Shown here piece by piece: positions 34,412 through 51,160 of a DNA stretch of 64,000 bases. The position numbers and the translations under genes are program-made. Each line of letters starts with the position of its first letter. Within the stretch, counting starts at the first letter, position 1. The notes under the pieces are model-generated. The model saw only the letters and a program-made list of their open reading frames with translations. It was not told where the DNA came from and searched no databases. Source of the DNA: an uncultured Alphaproteobacteria bacterium (lineage in GTDB: Bacteria > Pseudomonadota > Alphaproteobacteria > HIMB59 > GCA-002718135); the NCBI GenBank assembly GCA_902615845.1, contig CACMQS010000002.1, positions 62,001-126,000 on the forward strand, written 5' to 3'.

Positions 34412-34702
34412 CTACCTATTTGATTTCTTTTTAGAAGTTTTTTTCTTTTTGACTGTTTTTTTCTTAGATTTTACTGAACTTGAAGATGTTTTTTTTAATT
34501 TTTCATTTTCCATCATAACTTTTTGCACCATTTTTTTCAGTGCATCAAATTCATCTTTTTTAACGAGGTTCATTTTTTTTATTATTTTGTTAACTCGTAA
34601 AGATACAATTGTCTCAATCTCCTCTTTAACACCTGAAAAAGTGCTCATAGCATCAACCGCAAATTTTGATAAATCGGAAAGTATTTTGTTTCTATCAACC
34701 AT
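34412..34702 (-). CDS. UbiK/BMFP-domain accessory factor
   Basis: 96 aa with coiled-coil region VKKDEFDALKKMVQKVMMENEKL and Lys-rich tail. Confidence 0.75.
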   Translation of the reverse strand: MVDRNKILSDLSKFAVDAMSTFSGVKEEIETIVSLRVNKIIKKMNLVKKDEFDALKKMVQKVMMENEKLKKTSSSSVKSKKKTVKKKKTSKKKSNR

Positions 34703-34725
34703 GTTATAATATTAAATATAGATAA

Positions 34726-43330: not shown

Positions 43331-43777
43331 ATGAGAATTGCTCTATTTGAACCCGACATACCACAGAATGCAGGAAACATATTTAGACTAGGTGCCTGTC
43401 TTGGAATACCAGTAGACATAATAGAGCCAGCTGGCTTTGTGATTGATGATAAGAGATTAAAAAGAGCATCAATGGATTACTATGATTATCTAAAATTAAA
43501 AAAACATTTAAGTTGGGAAAAATTTTATGAGTGGTCAAAAGATAATTCATATCGACTCGTTCTTCTAACAACAAAAAGTAAAAAAAGTTATTTCGATTAT
43601 AAATTTCAATCAAATGATATTATTTTATTTGGCAGAGAAAGTGCAGGAGCACCTGATTTTGTTCATAGCTCTGTCGATGAAAGATTAATAATACCAATGA
43701 TAAAGGGGCCTAGATCGATTAATCTTAGTAGTTCAGTTGCTATTGTAGCTGGTGAAATGTTACGTCAATTAGCTTAA
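43331..43777 (+). CDS. trmL: tRNA (cytidine/uridine-2'-O-)-methyltransferase
   Basis: ALFEPDIPQNAGNIFRLGACLGIPVDIIEPAGF, LFGRESAGAP, IPMIKGPRSINLSSSVAI. Confidence 0.95.
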   Translation: MRIALFEPDIPQNAGNIFRLGACLGIPVDIIEPAGFVIDDKRLKRASMDYYDYLKLKKHLSWEKFYEWSKDNSYRLVLLTTKSKKSYFDYKFQSNDIILFGRESAGAPDFVHSSVDERLIIPMIKGPRSINLSSSVAIVAGEMLRQLA

Positions 43778-44631
43778 GCTAAGCTTCCCATCTTTCCTTC
43801 TTGATAGTCCATCATTGCTTGCTTGATTTCTCCCTCAGTATTTGCCACAAAAGGACCATAACGTGCTATAGGTTCTTTAAGTGGCTTACCTGCTAAAACT
43901 AGGTAGGATCCTTTTTCTGATATTGATGTAAGTTGAATCTCATCACTTGATTGATCAAAATAAATCATATCACCTTTATTAGCAATTTTATCTTGCTCAT
44001 TGAACTGCAACTGACCATCAATAATATAGATCATAAGATTTTGTTCTTTATCAACATTAAACTTTGTCATATCTGGTTTTGAAAATTGAATATCAAATAT
44101 TGATACAGGTGAATATGTTTGAACTTTGGATTTGGTTTCATTTATTTCACCCACAAGAACTTTAATTTCTATATTTGCATTTTCAGATACTGTTGGAATA
44201 GTATTTCTTTTAATATGTTGGTACCAAGGTTTAACTTTTTTATTTTTTTGTGGAAGGTTAACCCAGATTTGTAAACCTTGCATGATACCGCCACTCTTCT
44301 TGAATTTTTCTGTTACTAATTCAGAGTGAATTAAACCTGAACCAGTTGTCATCCATTGTACATCACCAGTTTCAATTTCCGCTTGTCCGCCAAATGAGTC
44401 TCTGTGTTCTACCTCACCACCAAGCATGTAAGTAATTGCCTCAAATCCACAATGAGGATGCGCAGGTACGCCAGTTGCTCCTCCTGGCTCATAATTAATT
44501 GGGCCGAAATGATCAAAAAGAAGAAATGGATCATTTTCTCTCATTCCTGGGACAGGGAAAGCTCTGGTTACAGGTATCCCGTCTCCCTCAAAAGTCTTCA
44601 TACATTGTTTAATTTCTAATGCTTTTCTCAT
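43774..44631 (-). CDS. Pirin family protein
   Basis: FLLFDHFGP, PAHPHCGFEAITYMLGGEVEHRDSFGG, MTTGSGLIHSE. Confidence 0.95.
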   Translation of the reverse strand: MRKALEIKQCMKTFEGDGIPVTRAFPVPGMRENDPFLLFDHFGPINYEPGGATGVPAHPHCGFEAITYMLGGEVEHRDSFGGQAEIETGDVQWMTTGSGLIHSELVTEKFKKSGGIMQGLQIWVNLPQKNKKVKPWYQHIKRNTIPTVSENANIEIKVLVGEINETKSKVQTYSPVSIFDIQFSKPDMTKFNVDKEQNLMIYIIDGQLQFNEQDKIANKGDMIYFDQSSDEIQLTSISEKGSYLVLAGKPLKEPIARYGPFVANTEGEIKQAMMDYQEGKMGSLA

Positions 44632-44671
44632 TTGTATTTTAAATTATTATAAAAAATATATAGGTATGATT

Positions 44672-44755
44672 ATGAAAAATCAAAATCCAAACCCACCAAA
44701 GTGTGGTTGCAGCTGCAGCTGTTGTTGCACTTGTGAAGGTGGAGATTGCTGTTAA
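44672..44755 (+). CDS. Putative Cys-rich metal-binding micro-peptide MKNQNPNPPKCGCSCSCCCTCEGGDCC (27 aa)
   Basis: Read directly; not in ORF track (below size cutoff). AGG at 44662-44664 is 7 nt upstream of ATG at 44672; in-frame alternative ATG at 44666; TAA at 44753-44755. Confidence 0.65.
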   Translation: MKNQNPNPPKCGCSCSCCCTCEGGDCC

Positions 44756-44822: not shown

Positions 44823-45230
44823 CTATTTTAAATTAATAATAATATCTGACTTACTATTTATTGGAGGAAATCTACCAACGATATTAGATCTATATATTTC
44901 AGGTCTATGTCTACGTCTCAAAAAACCATCATCAGATTTGCTATAGGATAATAGCAGTTCCTCTATTGAATCAATATAAGCAGAATTTTCAGGATCTATA
45001 TCTCCAAACACATAGGTAAAACAATTTTCTGCGGTAAAGGATACAATACATGAACGTTTACAATTACTCATGCAATTTACACCTCTTAAAGTTACATTTT
45101 TTGTATTTTTAAATTTATCAATTAATTTTTGTGCAAGTTTTTCTCCTGCAAGTTTATTATTATTTTGAGCTTTATTAAGGGTACATGTGAGACAAACAGA
45201 TAATATTATTTCTTTTTGTTTTTTTGACAT
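44823..45230 (-). CDS. DUF1636-like metal-binding protein
   Basis: SVCLTCTL and GVNCMSNCKRSCIVSF Cys motifs typical of DUF1636 family. Confidence 0.75.
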   Translation of the reverse strand: MSKKQKEIILSVCLTCTLNKAQNNNKLAGEKLAQKLIDKFKNTKNVTLRGVNCMSNCKRSCIVSFTAENCFTYVFGDIDPENSAYIDSIEELLLSYSKSDDGFLRRRHRPEIYRSNIVGRFPPINSKSDIIINLK

Positions 45231-45251
45231 TTTTATTCTAAATTTAATAAT

Positions 45252-45506
45252 CTAATGGGTGTGGTTTGTTAGATTATTAATATCTGACTCCTCTATTTCT
45301 TCTATTGATTTTGCAACTCGCCAATTTTTCATTGATCCGTCTTCATTTCTTGCAGTAATTACAGTTTCGATTGGTGGACAATCAGGCTCATGACAACTGA
45401 GCTCAGCAATACTTATTATAGTATTTTCTGGTAATTTATATTTCTTGGAAATTAAATGTTTAAGATTTCTTATTTTTTCAACATTTTGAGTTTTACGATT
45501 AAACAT
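45252..45506 (-). CDS. Conserved hypothetical with ELSCHEPDCPPIETVI motif and C-terminal NHTH
   Basis: 84 aa ORF between DUF1636-like and WD40 genes. Confidence 0.65.
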   Translation of the reverse strand: MFNRKTQNVEKIRNLKHLISKKYKLPENTIISIAELSCHEPDCPPIETVITARNEDGSMKNWRVAKSIEEIEESDINNLTNHTH

Positions 45507-45516
45507 ATTTTCTCCT

Positions 45517-46554
45517 TTAATTGTCTGCCCATAAAGATGATAAAAGAATAGAACCTTTCATATCCCCAATTAATATTTGTGAATTATCACTAGATATCGC
45601 TATTGTTGAAACTTCCGAACCTGTTGAACTTCTAATCATAATTGGTTTTTTACTTTCATCAATTTCTGCTAATAAAACTGACCCATCTGTAAAACCGGTG
45701 AAAACAGCTTTTTCTCCATTTAGTGCTTTAACAAATGTTGCAAGTTCTTTACCACCGTTTGCAACAACAATTGGCTTTCTCCCCATTGGTCCTTCTTTAC
45801 CATCAAATGGCCAGCAAACTGCATCACTGGATCCAGATGTTACCAAATACGGTGTATCACCAACCCAAGTAAAACTTTTAATTTTTGATGGATAACCTCT
45901 CATTGCTAAATCAGCTTTGTCGTTTATGCGCCAACCATGAATTTGATTTTCTTGCATTGCAGTTACAATATATTTTGTATCTGGGCTAAACGTTACAGTT
46001 CCATGCGATCCTTTCCATGTAAAATTTGATGCTGTCCATTTATTATTATTAAGTTTCCACACTGTTACTCCACCGTATCTTGAGACCGCAAGACGCTTAC
46101 CTTTATTATCAAATGCTAATCCAGCAACAGTACTTTGATGCTCTAAAGTTTGTGGTTTATCTTTGTTTTTTGTCCAAATATAAACAGTCTTTCCTGATGA
46201 ACAAACTTTAGTATCTTTGTGGGAAGCTACACAGTCAACCCACTTTGAACCAAAATTAAAAATTTCATCAATATTTCCATCAGATGATATTTTTAGAAAA
46301 CGTCCATCTTCTCCTCCCGTTAACACATGATCTTCATAATTTGTCATACTCAACACTACACCCTTATGTGCTTTAACAGTTTTAGGATCAGATCCAGATT
46401 GAAAAAATCTTACAGTACCGTCTCCAAATCCTACCGCTATTTGATCACGAATTGTAACTGCTTCTGTAGCTGGGGCTCCAATATTAAAAATTGAACCTCT
46501 TCTTTCAAGTTCAGTTTTATTTGATTCTTGAAGTGTTTCTAAATCAGCGTTCAT
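45517..46554 (-). CDS. WD40 repeat protein
   Basis: Repeated beta-propeller pattern (VKAHKGVVLSMTNYEDHVLTGGEDGRFLKI etc.); stop/start overlap with CobW gene. Confidence 0.85.
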   Translation of the reverse strand: MNADLETLQESNKTELERRGSIFNIGAPATEAVTIRDQIAVGFGDGTVRFFQSGSDPKTVKAHKGVVLSMTNYEDHVLTGGEDGRFLKISSDGNIDEIFNFGSKWVDCVASHKDTKVCSSGKTVYIWTKNKDKPQTLEHQSTVAGLAFDNKGKRLAVSRYGGVTVWKLNNNKWTASNFTWKGSHGTVTFSPDTKYIVTAMQENQIHGWRINDKADLAMRGYPSKIKSFTWVGDTPYLVTSGSSDAVCWPFDGKEGPMGRKPIVVANGGKELATFVKALNGEKAVFTGFTDGSVLLAEIDESKKPIMIRSSTGSEVSTIAISSDNSQILIGDMKGSILLSSLWADN

Positions 46555-47522
46555 GCTGATTTACAATTATCAAAGCCTTCCTTAAGATTCATATTATCAA
46601 GATCACGACCAATAAATACTACTCGAGAACTTCTATCTTTTCCTTTAGGCCAAGGTCCCATTGGTGAAGCATCCATGAGCATGTGTACTCCTTGAAATAC
46701 ATATCGCTCTTCTTCACCTTTAAAGTTCAAAATTCCTTTTGATCGAAGTATGTCCTGACCCTTAGTCCTGAGTAAATTTCCAAACCAATCTTGGAACTTA
46801 TCCATATCTAATGGTGTATCAGATACAAAGGATAGACTAGTAACATCATCATCATGTTCATGATCATGATCTGATTCAAGAAAGTCAGGTTCAATATCTA
46901 ATACTCTATCTAGACTAAATGCATTTAAGCCTACGATTTCATCAAGAGGTGCATCACAACGTGTTGTTTTAATAATCTTAGCAAAAGGATTAATTTTTCT
47001 AATACGATCATTAACTTTTACAATGTCATTATCTCCAACAAGTTCAACTTTATTTAACAAAATTACATCAGCAAAAGCAATTTGTTCTTCTGCTTCATGA
47101 TGATCGACTAATTGAGAACTTAGATGAACAGCATCGGCAACTGTAACAATTGCATCTAATTTTGTACGATCAGCAACATCTTGATCAACAAAGAAGGTTT
47201 GTGCTACTGGTGCTGGATCTGCTAAACCAGTTGTCTCAACAATAATTGCATCAAGCTTATCAGCACGTTTCATTAAGCCACTTAGAATTCTAATTAAATC
47301 ACCTCTAACAGTGCAACAAATGCACCCGTTGTTCATTTCAAATACTTCTTCATCAGCATCAACAACAAGATCATTGTCGATACCTTGTTCACCAAATTCA
47401 TTAACTATGACAGCATATTTCCTTCCATGCTGTTCAGTTAATATTCGATTTAAAAGAGTTGTTTTTCCAGCTCCAAGAAACCCTGTTAAAACAGTAACTG
47501 GAACCTGAGAAGTATTTTCCAT
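46551..47522 (-). CDS. CobW/COG0523-family GTPase (candidate zinc chaperone)
   Basis: TGFLGAGKTTLLNRIL, NNGCICCTVRGDL, His/Asp loop ESDHDHEHDDD. Confidence 0.93.
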   Translation of the reverse strand: MENTSQVPVTVLTGFLGAGKTTLLNRILTEQHGRKYAVIVNEFGEQGIDNDLVVDADEEVFEMNNGCICCTVRGDLIRILSGLMKRADKLDAIIVETTGLADPAPVAQTFFVDQDVADRTKLDAIVTVADAVHLSSQLVDHHEAEEQIAFADVILLNKVELVGDNDIVKVNDRIRKINPFAKIIKTTRCDAPLDEIVGLNAFSLDRVLDIEPDFLESDHDHEHDDDVTSLSFVSDTPLDMDKFQDWFGNLLRTKGQDILRSKGILNFKGEEERYVFQGVHMLMDASPMGPWPKGKDRSSRVVFIGRDLDNMNLKEGFDNCKSA

Positions 47523-47593: not shown

Positions 47594-49111
47594 TTAACAG
47601 CCTTTAAGCTCGTCCCCGAGATTACTTATCAACGTAAAGTAAAGTGACTTACTAGCATCAATGTTAGCACCTAAAGGATCAAAAACTCCTGTTTTGATAT
47701 TCATGTCCTCAGCTATTGTTGTAATAATCTTTGGATTAAATTGAGGTTCAGAGAAAATACATTTTATTCCCTTATCCTTAATAACATCCTGAATATCAGC
47801 TATTTGCTTTGCACCAGGTAAAACATCAGTATTCAATGTTAAAGCTCCTGCAGCTCTTACACCAAATCTTTCTTCAAAGTATTGGTAGGCGTCATGGAAG
47901 ACAACAAATTTTGCATCAGAATTAATATCTGTACCAACATCGCTAATAAGCTGATCTAAAGCTTTAATTGTTGCTTCAGCATTTGCTTCATATTTCTCTT
48001 TATTGGCAGGATCTAAATCACCTAACTCATGAGCTATTTCATGAACCATTTCTTTGGCATTCATTGGATCTAACCAAATGTGAGCATCAAATTCACCGTG
48101 TGCATGGCCGTGATGATCATGATGATCGTGACCATCCATTTCTGGTTCTTGAGCAATTGGTTCTATATCTGCACCAGAGGTATCTTTGAAGAAATGTTCA
48201 TTTGCTTCAAACTCAAAAGGCATATGCTCTGTGAAGAAAGCATATTTTCCATTCTCAGCTATTTCAACTGTAAACACGGTCATATTTTGAGAATCATCAA
48301 AATTTAAAGAGTATGCAATCTCCTTAGCAACAAGAGTTCCACCATTTGTTTTTTTTGCGGAAGTTTTACTTTCTAAAAGTTCTTCAGCCGTTTCCTCAAC
48401 TGCTTCAATATCATCAGCCGCTAGTAATACTAACTTCATAGCAGGGTCAGCATAATCGCCATCAACTTTAGCAGCAGACCACTTATATGTTCCCGCTTTT
48501 AGATCAAATAATCCTGCCCATTCAAAAGCATGTGCACCGTGTGCGTGATCGTCATGGTCATCATGATCATCGTGGTCATCGTGATCATCGTGGTCATCAT
48601 GATCGTCATGATCATCGTGGTCATCATGATCGTCATGATCATCGTGGTCATCGTGGTCGTCGTGATCATCATGGTCATCGTGATCGTCGTGGTCGTCATG
48701 GTCATCGTGATCGTCGTGGTCGTCATGGTCACCAAAAATTGATTCTTCTCTAAATTTTAATTTAGCAATTGAATCAAGTTCCATAAATTCAATTACTTCT
48801 GCATCCTTTGCAATTGAGTCTAGGGGTTCTTCCATTGATGTTTCAATACCCTCTCCAATCCAAAAAATGACATCTGCTTCCTCAAGCATTTTCGCATGAG
48901 AAGGTTTCATTGTAAAACTATGTGGTGATATACTTCCATCAATTATAAGTCCAGGTTCTCCTACTCCCTCCATAACATTTGAAATCAATGAATGTAGTGG
49001 TTTAATTGTGGTAACAACTTTTAGCTCTGCTCTAGCAGATGCAGTTGCAACAAGAATTCCTGAAAACAAAATAATCTTAGAAATATGTAGAAAAAAGTTC
49101 GTTTGTTTCAT
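47594..49111 (-). CDS. znuA: Zinc ABC transporter substrate-binding protein with expanded His/Asp region and inserted domain
   Basis: Signal peptide, VVTTIKPLHSLISNVMEGV, DAHIWLDPMNAKEMV, VFHDAYQYFEERFGVRAAGALTL. Confidence 0.93.
   Translation of the reverse strand: MKQTNFFLHISKIILFSGILVATASARAELKVVTTIKPLHSLISNVMEGVGEPGLIIDGSISPHSFTMKPSHAKMLEEADVIFWIGEGIETSMEEPLDSIAKDAEVIEFMELDSIAKLKFREESIFGDHDDHDDHDDHDDHDDHDDHDDHDDHDDHDDHDDHDDHDDHDDHDDHDDHDDHDDHDDHDDHAHGAHAFEWAGLFDLKAGTYKWSAAKVDGDYADPAMKLVLLAADDIEAVEETAEELLESKTSAKKTNGGTLVAKEIAYSLNFDDSQNMTVFTVEIAENGKYAFFTEHMPFEFEANEHFFKDTSGADIEPIAQEPEMDGHDHHDHHGHAHGEFDAHIWLDPMNAKEMVHEIAHELGDLDPANKEKYEANAEATIKALDQLISDVGTDINSDAKFVVFHDAYQYFEERFGVRAAGALTLNTDVLPGAKQIADIQDVIKDKGIKCIFSEPQFNPKIITTIAEDMNIKTGVFDPLGANIDASKSLYFTLISNLGDELKGC
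48545..48730 (-). repeat. Tandem 9-bp repeat encoding about 20 DHD units in ZnuA
   Basis: 186 nt, 62 residues of DHD periodicity, with 27-bp higher-order duplicates. Confidence 0.95.
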
Positions 49112-49145: not shown

Positions 49146-49169
49146 AATGTAATGTTATAATATTACATT
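49146..49169. promoter_or_regulatory. Candidate Zur box AATGTAATGTTATAATATTACATT
   Basis: 24-bp near-perfect palindrome (8-bp outer arms identical, one mismatched pair) in the znuA/znuC divergent region; resembles the known Zur consensus core GTTATAnTATAAC. Confidence 0.8.
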
Positions 49170-49188: not shown

Positions 49189-49929
49189 ATGAGTAAAGAT
49201 AATTTATTGGTAAGTCTAGAGAACGCAGGTATTTATAAGTCACCAAAATGGTTGATAAGAGGTGTATCTCTTGAGGTAAAAAATGGTCAAATAGTTACAC
49301 TAATTGGACCCAATGGTTCTGGAAAAACTACAACAGCTAAAATGGTCCTTAATATTCTTGAACCTGATGAAGGTTCATTGAAACGGTATACAAATAAAAT
49401 AGCATATGTTCCTCAGAAAATTAATATTGATTGGACTATGCCATTACGTGTTTTAGATTTTATGCGATTAACCAATAATCTCAGTAATAATGAAATTATT
49501 GAATCCTTAAATCAAACTGGTGTAGAAAAACTTTTCAAGGAACAAATACATGGTCTATCTGGTGGCGAATTTCAACGTGTCCTTCTAGCGAGAGCAATTG
49601 CAAAAAAACCAGAATTACTAGTTTTAGATGAACCTGTGCAGGGAGTTGATTTTAATGGAGAAATTGACCTTTATAATATTATAAAAAATATTTCAGCAAA
49701 CCTAAATTGTGGAATTTTATTAGTCTCCCATGACTTGCATTTTGTAATGTCTGCAACAGATCATGTAGTTTGTTTAAATGGACATATATGTTGTTCAGGA
49801 AAACCAAGTTCGGTTATAAAAGATAAAGCTTATATAGAATTATTTGGTGAGCATAGATCAAAAACTTTAACATATTATCAGCACGATCATGATCACACAC
49901 ATGCTTCTGACGGAAGTGTATCAAGTTAA
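49189..49929 (+). CDS. znuC: Zinc ABC transporter ATP-binding protein
   Basis: LIGPNGSGKTTTAKMVL Walker A, LSGGEFQRVLLARAI, His-rich C-terminus YYQHDHDHTHASDG. Confidence 0.95.
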   Translation: MSKDNLLVSLENAGIYKSPKWLIRGVSLEVKNGQIVTLIGPNGSGKTTTAKMVLNILEPDEGSLKRYTNKIAYVPQKINIDWTMPLRVLDFMRLTNNLSNNEIIESLNQTGVEKLFKEQIHGLSGGEFQRVLLARAIAKKPELLVLDEPVQGVDFNGEIDLYNIIKNISANLNCGILLVSHDLHFVMSATDHVVCLNGHICCSGKPSSVIKDKAYIELFGEHRSKTLTYYQHDHDHTHASDGSVSS

Positions 49930-50732
49930 TGTTAGATGATTTTTTTACTAGAGCATTAGTTGCTGGTATCGGTATTGCAATAATTACAGGACCACTAGGT
50001 TGCTTAGTAATTTGGAGAAGGCTGTCTTATTTTGGTGATACTTTAGCTCACTCTGCCTTGTTAGGAGTAACTTTAGCTTATGCCTTTAGTTTAAATATTG
50101 CCTTTTCCGTATTTGTAATATCTGCAGTTATTGCTCTACTTCTTCTCAACTTACAAAAGAGGACTAGATTAGCTGGTGATTCATTACTTGGATTATTAGC
50201 TCACTCTACTCTTGCAATTGGTTTGGTGTTAATGGGTTTTTTATCAAGTATTCGTTTTGATATTATGGGATTACTTTTTGGCGATATCTTAGCAGTAACT
50301 CTTCAAGATATTGCCTTAGTTTGGATTGGTGGTTTTATAATTTTAGGAATTTTGTATTTTATTTGGAAATCGTTATTTTCTGCTACAGTTAATTATGATC
50401 TAGCTTCAGCAGAAGGAATGAAACCGAACATATATAATATGATCTTTACCCTTCTTCTTGCTGGAGTTATCGCATTGTCTATAAAAATGATTGGAACTCT
50501 TTTAATAACTGGTCTACTTATAATACCGGCTGCCGCATCAAGAAATATAACTAACAATCCAACACAAATGGTATTTGTAGCTATATTAATTGGTATTTTA
50601 TCAGTCACAATTGGCTTATTTACCTCTTTGGAATTGAATACCTCTTCGGGACCATCAATTATTGTTATAGCAATAATATTATTTATTATTTCTCTTATTC
50701 CACTAGAGTTGAGAGGTAAGTTGCAAAAATGA
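49929..50732 (+). CDS. znuB: Zinc ABC transporter permease
   Basis: Multi-TM; VIWRRLSYFGDTLAHSALLG, GTLLITGLLIIPAAASRN. Confidence 0.95.
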   Translation: MLDDFFTRALVAGIGIAIITGPLGCLVIWRRLSYFGDTLAHSALLGVTLAYAFSLNIAFSVFVISAVIALLLLNLQKRTRLAGDSLLGLLAHSTLAIGLVLMGFLSSIRFDIMGLLFGDILAVTLQDIALVWIGGFIILGILYFIWKSLFSATVNYDLASAEGMKPNIYNMIFTLLLAGVIALSIKMIGTLLITGLLIIPAAASRNITNNPTQMVFVAILIGILSVTIGLFTSLELNTSSGPSIIVIAIILFIISLIPLELRGKLQK

Positions 50733-50746
50733 AAACAATTTGGTAA

Positions 50747-51160
50747 TTGAGATTTATGGGATTGGCATCGGATAATTTAACTAAGAATCAAAAAACAGTT
50801 CTTGGAGTTTTAGAAAACTCTTCTGAACCGATGAAGGCGTACACAATTCTTTATGATATACAAAAAATGGGAATAAAATCTCCTCTGCAAGTTTACAGGG
50901 CACTCGATAAATTGATTGAAATTGGAAAAGTTCACAAAATAGAAAGTAGAAATTCTTACGTTGCTTGTAAACATGAAGGATGTAATGCAAAAACTTCTAC
51001 ATCTTTTTTGATATGTGAAAACTGTGATAGTGTAACTGAGCTAACTGGAAATAATTTATTTTCTTATTTTTCAAAACAAGCAGAAAAAAATAACTTCAAT
51101 TATAAAAAACATAATTTAGAAATATTTGGTTTGTGCGAAAATTGTAAACTAAAAAACTAA
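50747..51160 (+). CDS. zur: Fur-family regulator, zinc uptake regulator
   Basis: Fur winged helix, CKHEGCNAKTSTSFLICENCDSVTEL and CENCKLKN; follows znuCB. TTG start at 50747 or ATG at 50756. Confidence 0.9.
   Translation: MRFMGLASDNLTKNQKTVLGVLENSSEPMKAYTILYDIQKMGIKSPLQVYRALDKLIEIGKVHKIESRNSYVACKHEGCNAKTSTSFLICENCDSVTELTGNNLFSYFSKQAEKNNFNYKKHNLEIFGLCENCKLKN

Follow-up and report, generated by a model that had tools for sequence, protein, structure and literature searches.

The presence of a short, very Cys-rich open reading frame (ORF) beside a set of zinc homeostasis genes raised the question of whether this ORF, within the 64,000-nucleotide stretch of alphaproteobacterial DNA that we analysed (referred to as the window), is a genuine gene and, if so, what its product might do. 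Translation of positions 44672-44755 on the plus strand yielded a 27-aa peptide, MKNQNPNPPKCGCSCSCCCTCEGGDCC, followed by a stop codon. Its Cys residues occupy positions 11, 13, 15, 17, 18, 19, 21, 26 and 27, thereby making up one third of the chain, and all nine fall within the last 17 residues, exactly as an earlier sequence-only reading of this locus had claimed. They follow the pattern CxCxCxCCCxC...CC, and the chain contains neither aromatic residues nor His. Nine Cys in 17 residues was the maximum over all stop-free six-frame stretches of the window, and simulated windows (Markov-1, n=60) reached maxima of only 4-7. Composition alone is weak evidence for a gene, because Cys-dense stretches without a start codon occur elsewhere, as in a 1.41-Mb relative, where one nine-Cys stretch lacks a Met and is apparently out of frame; it is conservation that carries the case. 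The neighbours named by the sequence-only reading (pirin and DUF1636 genes on the minus strand, cobW, znuABC and zur) were all correctly recognised, as borne out by the ORF list and Pfam searches, and the locus comprises the following features:

43774-44631, minus strand: pirin gene (PF02678/PF05726), divergent neighbour, with murJ in its place in some relatives
44632-44662, plus strand: candidate promoter read from the sequence, with TTGTAT at 44632-44637 and AATATA/TATATA at 44655-44662
44662-44664, plus strand: possible Shine-Dalgarno sequence AGG
44672-44755, plus strand: 27-aa nine-Cys peptide ORF (ATG to TAA), by translation and by its conserved frame and Cys
44823-45230, minus strand: DUF1636 gene (PF07845), convergent neighbour and last gene of the zinc operon
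45252-45506, minus strand: 84-aa ORF of the same zinc operon (ORF list), with no match in a Pfam search
45517-46554, minus strand: WD40-repeat gene of the same zinc operon (Pfam search)
46551-47522, minus strand: cobW-family (COG0523) gene for a putative zinc metallochaperone GTPase (PF02492/PF07683)
47594-49111, minus strand: znuA (PF01297), which opens the minus-strand operon and contains a long Asp/His-rich repeat
49151-49169: Zur box between znuA and znuC
49189-51160, plus strand: znuC, znuB and zur (Fur family; ORF list and Pfam)

The window probably stems from the AEGEAN-169/HIMB59 clade (SAR11 subclade V), whose genomes are streamlined and have a GC content of about 29.5% (PMC10308909). 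The peptide was found in 111 of the 163 genomes of the order, 75 belonging to the family of the window and 36 to a second family (two of the eight genera). Of the pirin homologues at 77 public loci, mostly from single-cell genomes labelled 'uncultured Alphaproteobacteria', those of nearly all close relatives likewise had the peptide upstream in divergent orientation. The pN/pS ratio amounted to 0.07 in the window's family (35 unique ORFs) and 0.076 in the second family (10 unique ORFs), with 22 of 34 and 19 of 23 variable columns, respectively, located at third codon positions. A comparison of the window's peptide with its second-family form, MDNNKPKPDCGCSCSCCCTCGDGCCQ, revealed that both families keep all nine Cys and the CGC-S-C-x-CCC-x-C core, that the Ser residue is retained while its codons are AGY in one family and TCN in the other, and that the last spacer goes from 4 to 3 residues without the loss of any Cys (overall length 26-27 aa). 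Across the variants of both families, position 16 is S, G or P and position 20 is T or A, and the NPNPPK and EGG segments are highly conserved as well. The Cys themselves are nearly invariant over the 35 and 10 unique ORFs, the exceptions being a Cys11-to-Phe change in locus L082 and a frameshifted peptide end in locus L079, the latter of which may be a single-cell amplification error. The residues just before the start differ among loci (IGMIM, IGIIM, IGEIM and IGVIM), and GTG replaces ATG at the start position in one locus, which together support the start codon. The sequence-only reading was to be abandoned if neither frame nor Cys positions were conserved in relatives; instead, both proved to be under strong purifying selection, and the dN/dS check that it had proposed over the ORF returned a dN/dS-like ratio of about 0.07. 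We are confident that the 27-aa ORF is a genuine conserved protein-coding gene.

Outside these two families no real homologue was found: 387 alphaproteobacterial genomes yielded nothing beyond weak matches in composition, and 399 genomes of the phylum gave, besides the copy in the window, only Gly-Cys repeats, Cys runs and a 15-residue out-of-frame stretch. The single match in 2.9 million viral contigs was rejected, as it was the antisense of a poly-Gln phage protein. We found no description of the peptide in the literature searched, including papers on trace metals and on the genomics of the clade. The peptide is not essential throughout the order, because it is absent from a complete 1.41-Mb second-family genome (G037), in whose six frames no comparable Met-started, Cys-rich short ORF was detected. 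In the examined members of the window's family that lack the peptide, the ZnuB match is missing from the assembly or lies on a contig that is short or ends before the expected place (G029, G035, G067 and G079).

The candidate promoter is squeezed between the start codons of the pirin gene and the peptide gene. The sequence before the peptide differs by arrangement of the locus, and in each arrangement a -35/-10-like pair could be discerned by eye, which ends about 6-11 nt ahead of the start codon. The Shine-Dalgarno sequence put forward by the sequence-only reading does exist, 7 nt from the ATG, but is kept only in the arrangement with pirin on that side; the AGG is missing from the remaining arrangements and from the second family, where a -10-like hexamer is located about 6-11 nt from the ATG. 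The peptide gene would thus appear to be driven by a promoter of its own, with a 5′ leader so short that the mRNA is nearly leaderless.

In every assembled case from the window's family, the peptide gene and the minus-strand zinc operon meet tail-to-tail at the operon's 3′ end, and the neighbour on the opposite side is divergent from the peptide gene. The flanks came in five combinations, with pirin or murJ on one side and DUF1636 (missing in some peptide-carrying relatives), the 84-aa ORF or znuA on the other, indicating that the association of the peptide with the zinc operon was maintained through changes in the other flank and in an internal cassette. This cobW-WD40-ORF84-DUF1636 cassette behind znuA (44823-47522 in the window; L018, L032 and L123) is full, without DUF1636, or wholly missing in close relatives. 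The Asp/His repeat of znuA (DDH units) also varies strongly in length, with ORFs of about 321 to 530 aa (L046, L032, L123 and L130), and one znuB copy (G014:C1:518-1318; L166) carries an internal TAG that is either a sequencing error or decay, being otherwise 99% identical to znuB of the window. Where the peptide gene adjoins znuA (L123 4985-5100 and L124-L128), its final codons together with the stop make up an inverted repeat (GGGTGTT...AACACCC) that may be a terminator for both the peptide gene and znuA; this repeat is absent from the window copy.

Second-family genomes have the peptide gene away from the zinc genes, though ZnuB is widespread among them; the peptide gene there is convergent with a gene for an Anbu-type proteasome, and a circularly permuted ATP-grasp gene lies nearby. 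The zinc linkage of the peptide is therefore family-specific. The peptide and Anbu occur together in 29 second-family genomes and are both missing from 10, while one genome has a truncated Anbu match without the peptide; no Anbu was found in the window's family. This co-occurrence is weak evidence of a functional tie, because it concerns one linked locus in related genomes. The Anbu-type proteasome and ATP-grasp genes as such (L131-L142) are present in 30 of the 40 second-family genomes and absent from the rest.

The Zur box between znuA and znuC (AATGTTATAATATTACATT) has motif equivalents at the same place in both families. Before the peptide gene, in contrast, no Zur box was detected in any lineage, the best site scoring 5.3 bits versus at least 19 for the znuA-znuC sites, and no other recognised metal-responsive element was found upstream. 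Zur control of the peptide was rejected, given that its candidate promoter is without a Zur box. The link to a zinc island that had been proposed from the window thus stands throughout the window's family, but neither extends to the second family, with its Anbu-adjoining gene, nor is reflected in a Zur box before the peptide. The second-best Zur-like site (CATGTTATAATATTAAATA, 13.8 bits), located at 34700-34718 of the window, where it is flanked by a 96-aa ORF and a likely lgt gene, probably arose by chance.

As to function, we consider it reasonably probable that the peptide is a cytosolic, His-free, single-cluster, metallothionein-like thiolate buffer for zinc or Cu(I). Its nine Cys thiolates would wrap one metal-thiolate cluster, presumably of the Zn3Cys9 type (or a cluster of Cu(I), should the native metal be copper), and the cluster peptide would in turn buffer the free metal level of cells that possess a high-affinity zinc importer and neither P1B nor CDF exporters. 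Metal binding, cluster stoichiometry and cytosolic location are predictions, and it is the linkage in the window's family that suggests zinc as the metal, zinc being favoured over copper only by this linkage in one family. Heavy-metal P1B ATPases (TIGR01525) and CDF exporters (PF01545) were each absent from all 61 genomes of the order that were searched, including the complete G037, while each model matched 14 of 14 controls, and this absence strengthens the metal-buffer reading. Because G037 lacks the peptide as well as both exporters, such a buffer would not be an obligatory substitute for efflux. RND pumps related to the CzcA model yielded only matches below the cut-off, and a heavy-metal RND pump was rejected as a candidate on that ground. 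The 61 genomes were equally devoid of YcaO cyclodehydratases (five controls matched) and MNIO (DUF692) enzymes (two controls matched). With nine conserved thiols, no His and neither YcaO nor MNIO, this short, soluble chain would be best explained as a metal-thiolate cluster peptide. Against a buffer stand the lack of an upstream Zur box or other recognised metal-responsive element, the second-family location beside Anbu and away from zinc genes, the case of G037, the existence of the RND pumps with sub-threshold CzcA matches, and the lack of a sequence match to any metallothionein model.

These same observations bear on several other explanations. Rather than a bulk buffer, the peptide might be a metallochaperone or exchange partner passing zinc to or from a protein such as the CobW GTPase or Zur, an idea that draws on how constantly it adjoins the zinc operon in the window's family and on how well its non-Cys residues (NPNPPK and EGG) are conserved. 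However, it persists where cobW-WD40-ORF84-DUF1636 is missing and lies away from zinc genes altogether in second-family genomes, and nine Cys exceed what the delivery of a single ion needs, which makes this role unlikely. About equally unlikely is a thiol scavenger that would act against electrophiles, reactive oxygen or soft toxic metals (Hg, Cd and As) instead of in essential-metal homeostasis: the extreme thiol density, the lack of a Zur box and a second-family location that is not metal-linked would all suit it, but the strict spacing of the nine Cys surpasses the needs of a thiol reservoir, and the zinc linkage in the window's family speaks against it. The second-family location could also point to a partner or substrate of the adjacent Anbu/ATP-grasp system, since all 29 second-family genomes with the peptide that entered this comparison carry Anbu and 10 have neither. 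Yet Anbu turned up in the second family alone while the peptide is conserved in both, and one linked locus inherited by a clade would give an equal pattern, so that we attach very little weight to this option.

The sequence-only reading had considered a RiPP precursor, in which a Cys/Ser/Thr-rich core is enzymatically modified (to azole, thioether or oxazolone-thioamide), and the composition of CGCSCSCCCTC indeed resembles that of azole-type (TOMM) cores. Methanobactin, bufferins and TOMMs are likewise short, Cys-rich, genome-encoded peptides, some of them copper-binding, but they need an MNIO or YcaO enzyme, neither of which occurs in the 61 relatives. Only ten residues precede the would-be core, positions 16 and 20 tolerate Gly or Pro and Ala, respectively, and no maturase or exporter is common to both genomic locations; in the immediate neighbourhood, neither a radical-SAM nor a lanthionine synthetase partner was seen at either one. 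A RiPP precursor is accordingly disfavoured and, in our estimate, quite improbable. A metal sensor peptide, also considered at the time, is unsupported, as the zinc island's minus-strand operon offers no same-strand downstream gene. The Cys-codon runs of the ORF resemble those of attenuator leaders and might suggest a leader peptide or another cis-regulatory ORF. This explanation is contradicted by gene order, with no close same-strand gene downstream and the next genes convergent in every arrangement, and residues besides Cys are conserved too; we regard it as extremely improbable. Finally, Cys-dense stretches do arise by chance, like the nine-Cys stretch of the 1.41-Mb relative, but a functionless chance ORF is ruled out because both families, at a pN/pS of 0.07, conserve the frame, the start codon, the length and all Cys, and its probability is next to nil. 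The earlier interpretation as a whole is partly supported: a metal buffer is still the best reading, the zinc link is limited to one family, the RiPP option is disfavoured and the sensor option is without support.

Taking the metal-buffer reading one step further, the peptide could represent a previously undescribed metallothionein family, ultra-short at 26-27 aa, devoid of His and built around one nine-Cys cluster. Such a family, which may be the smallest in bacteria, would supply an efflux-poor, streamlined oceanic lineage with its intracellular zinc or copper buffer. We put this forward tentatively, as somewhat short of an even bet. Metal would then enter via ZnuABC, would not leave via P1B or CDF exporters, and would be stored in a peptide barely larger than the metal cluster itself. 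If metal-binding, the peptide would rank with the smallest metallothioneins of bacteria, overlooked since ORFs of 27 codons are skipped by gene callers. It would also show by what means abundant open-ocean bacteria control free metal without the usual exporters for zinc and copper. For metal homeostasis in streamlined marine genomes it offers an explanation that can be tested directly, and for cluster chemistry a compact natural peptide.

How the peptide relates to known metallothioneins was assessed by features; no Pfam or NCBIfam model and no PDB chain matched it at E<=10. It shares with the metallothionein class a small size, a very high Cys content (with CxC and CC motifs), few or no aromatic residues, and Cys positions under strong selection. 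In contrast to SmtA/BmtA-type proteins, it neither matches a curated model nor has His ligands, there being no His in any variant, and at 27 aa it is probably too short for their zinc-finger fold. SmtA, BmtA and PflQ2 MT are small and Cys-rich like the peptide; they bind several Zn or Cd ions, and PflQ2 MT of Pseudomonas combines nine Cys with a Zn3Cys9His cluster (PMC7387436); theirs, however, are clusters with His ligands and, in SmtA, a zinc-finger fold. Marine Synechococcus WH8102 offers a parallel in physiology: it takes up zinc via ZnuABC, has no known zinc efflux pumps and stores zinc in the metallothionein BmtA (PMC9337993), but its BmtA has Zur boxes whereas the peptide gene has none. 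Similar features occur in the small fungal metallothioneins of Neurospora crassa, Agaricus bisporus and Yarrowia lipolytica, which are very short or single-cluster, with CxC runs and seven to nine Cys. The Yarrowia protein also lacks His and has a CCC motif of which every Cys can coordinate Cu(I) (PMC13107397). These proteins are eukaryotic and the metal studied in them is Cu(I), and the likeness to the peptide is one of features. The peptide may work like a metallothionein yet stand outside any described family, and its likeness to known metallothioneins is best read as convergence. The same number of Cys is found in the vertebrate metallothionein beta domain, where a nine-Cys stretch folds round three divalent ions; this domain is part of a longer protein with other Cys spacing and is compared here by count only. 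In human MT3 its nine Cys suffice for Zn3Cys9 (PMC13107397), a beta cluster whose ligands are nine Cys and no His.
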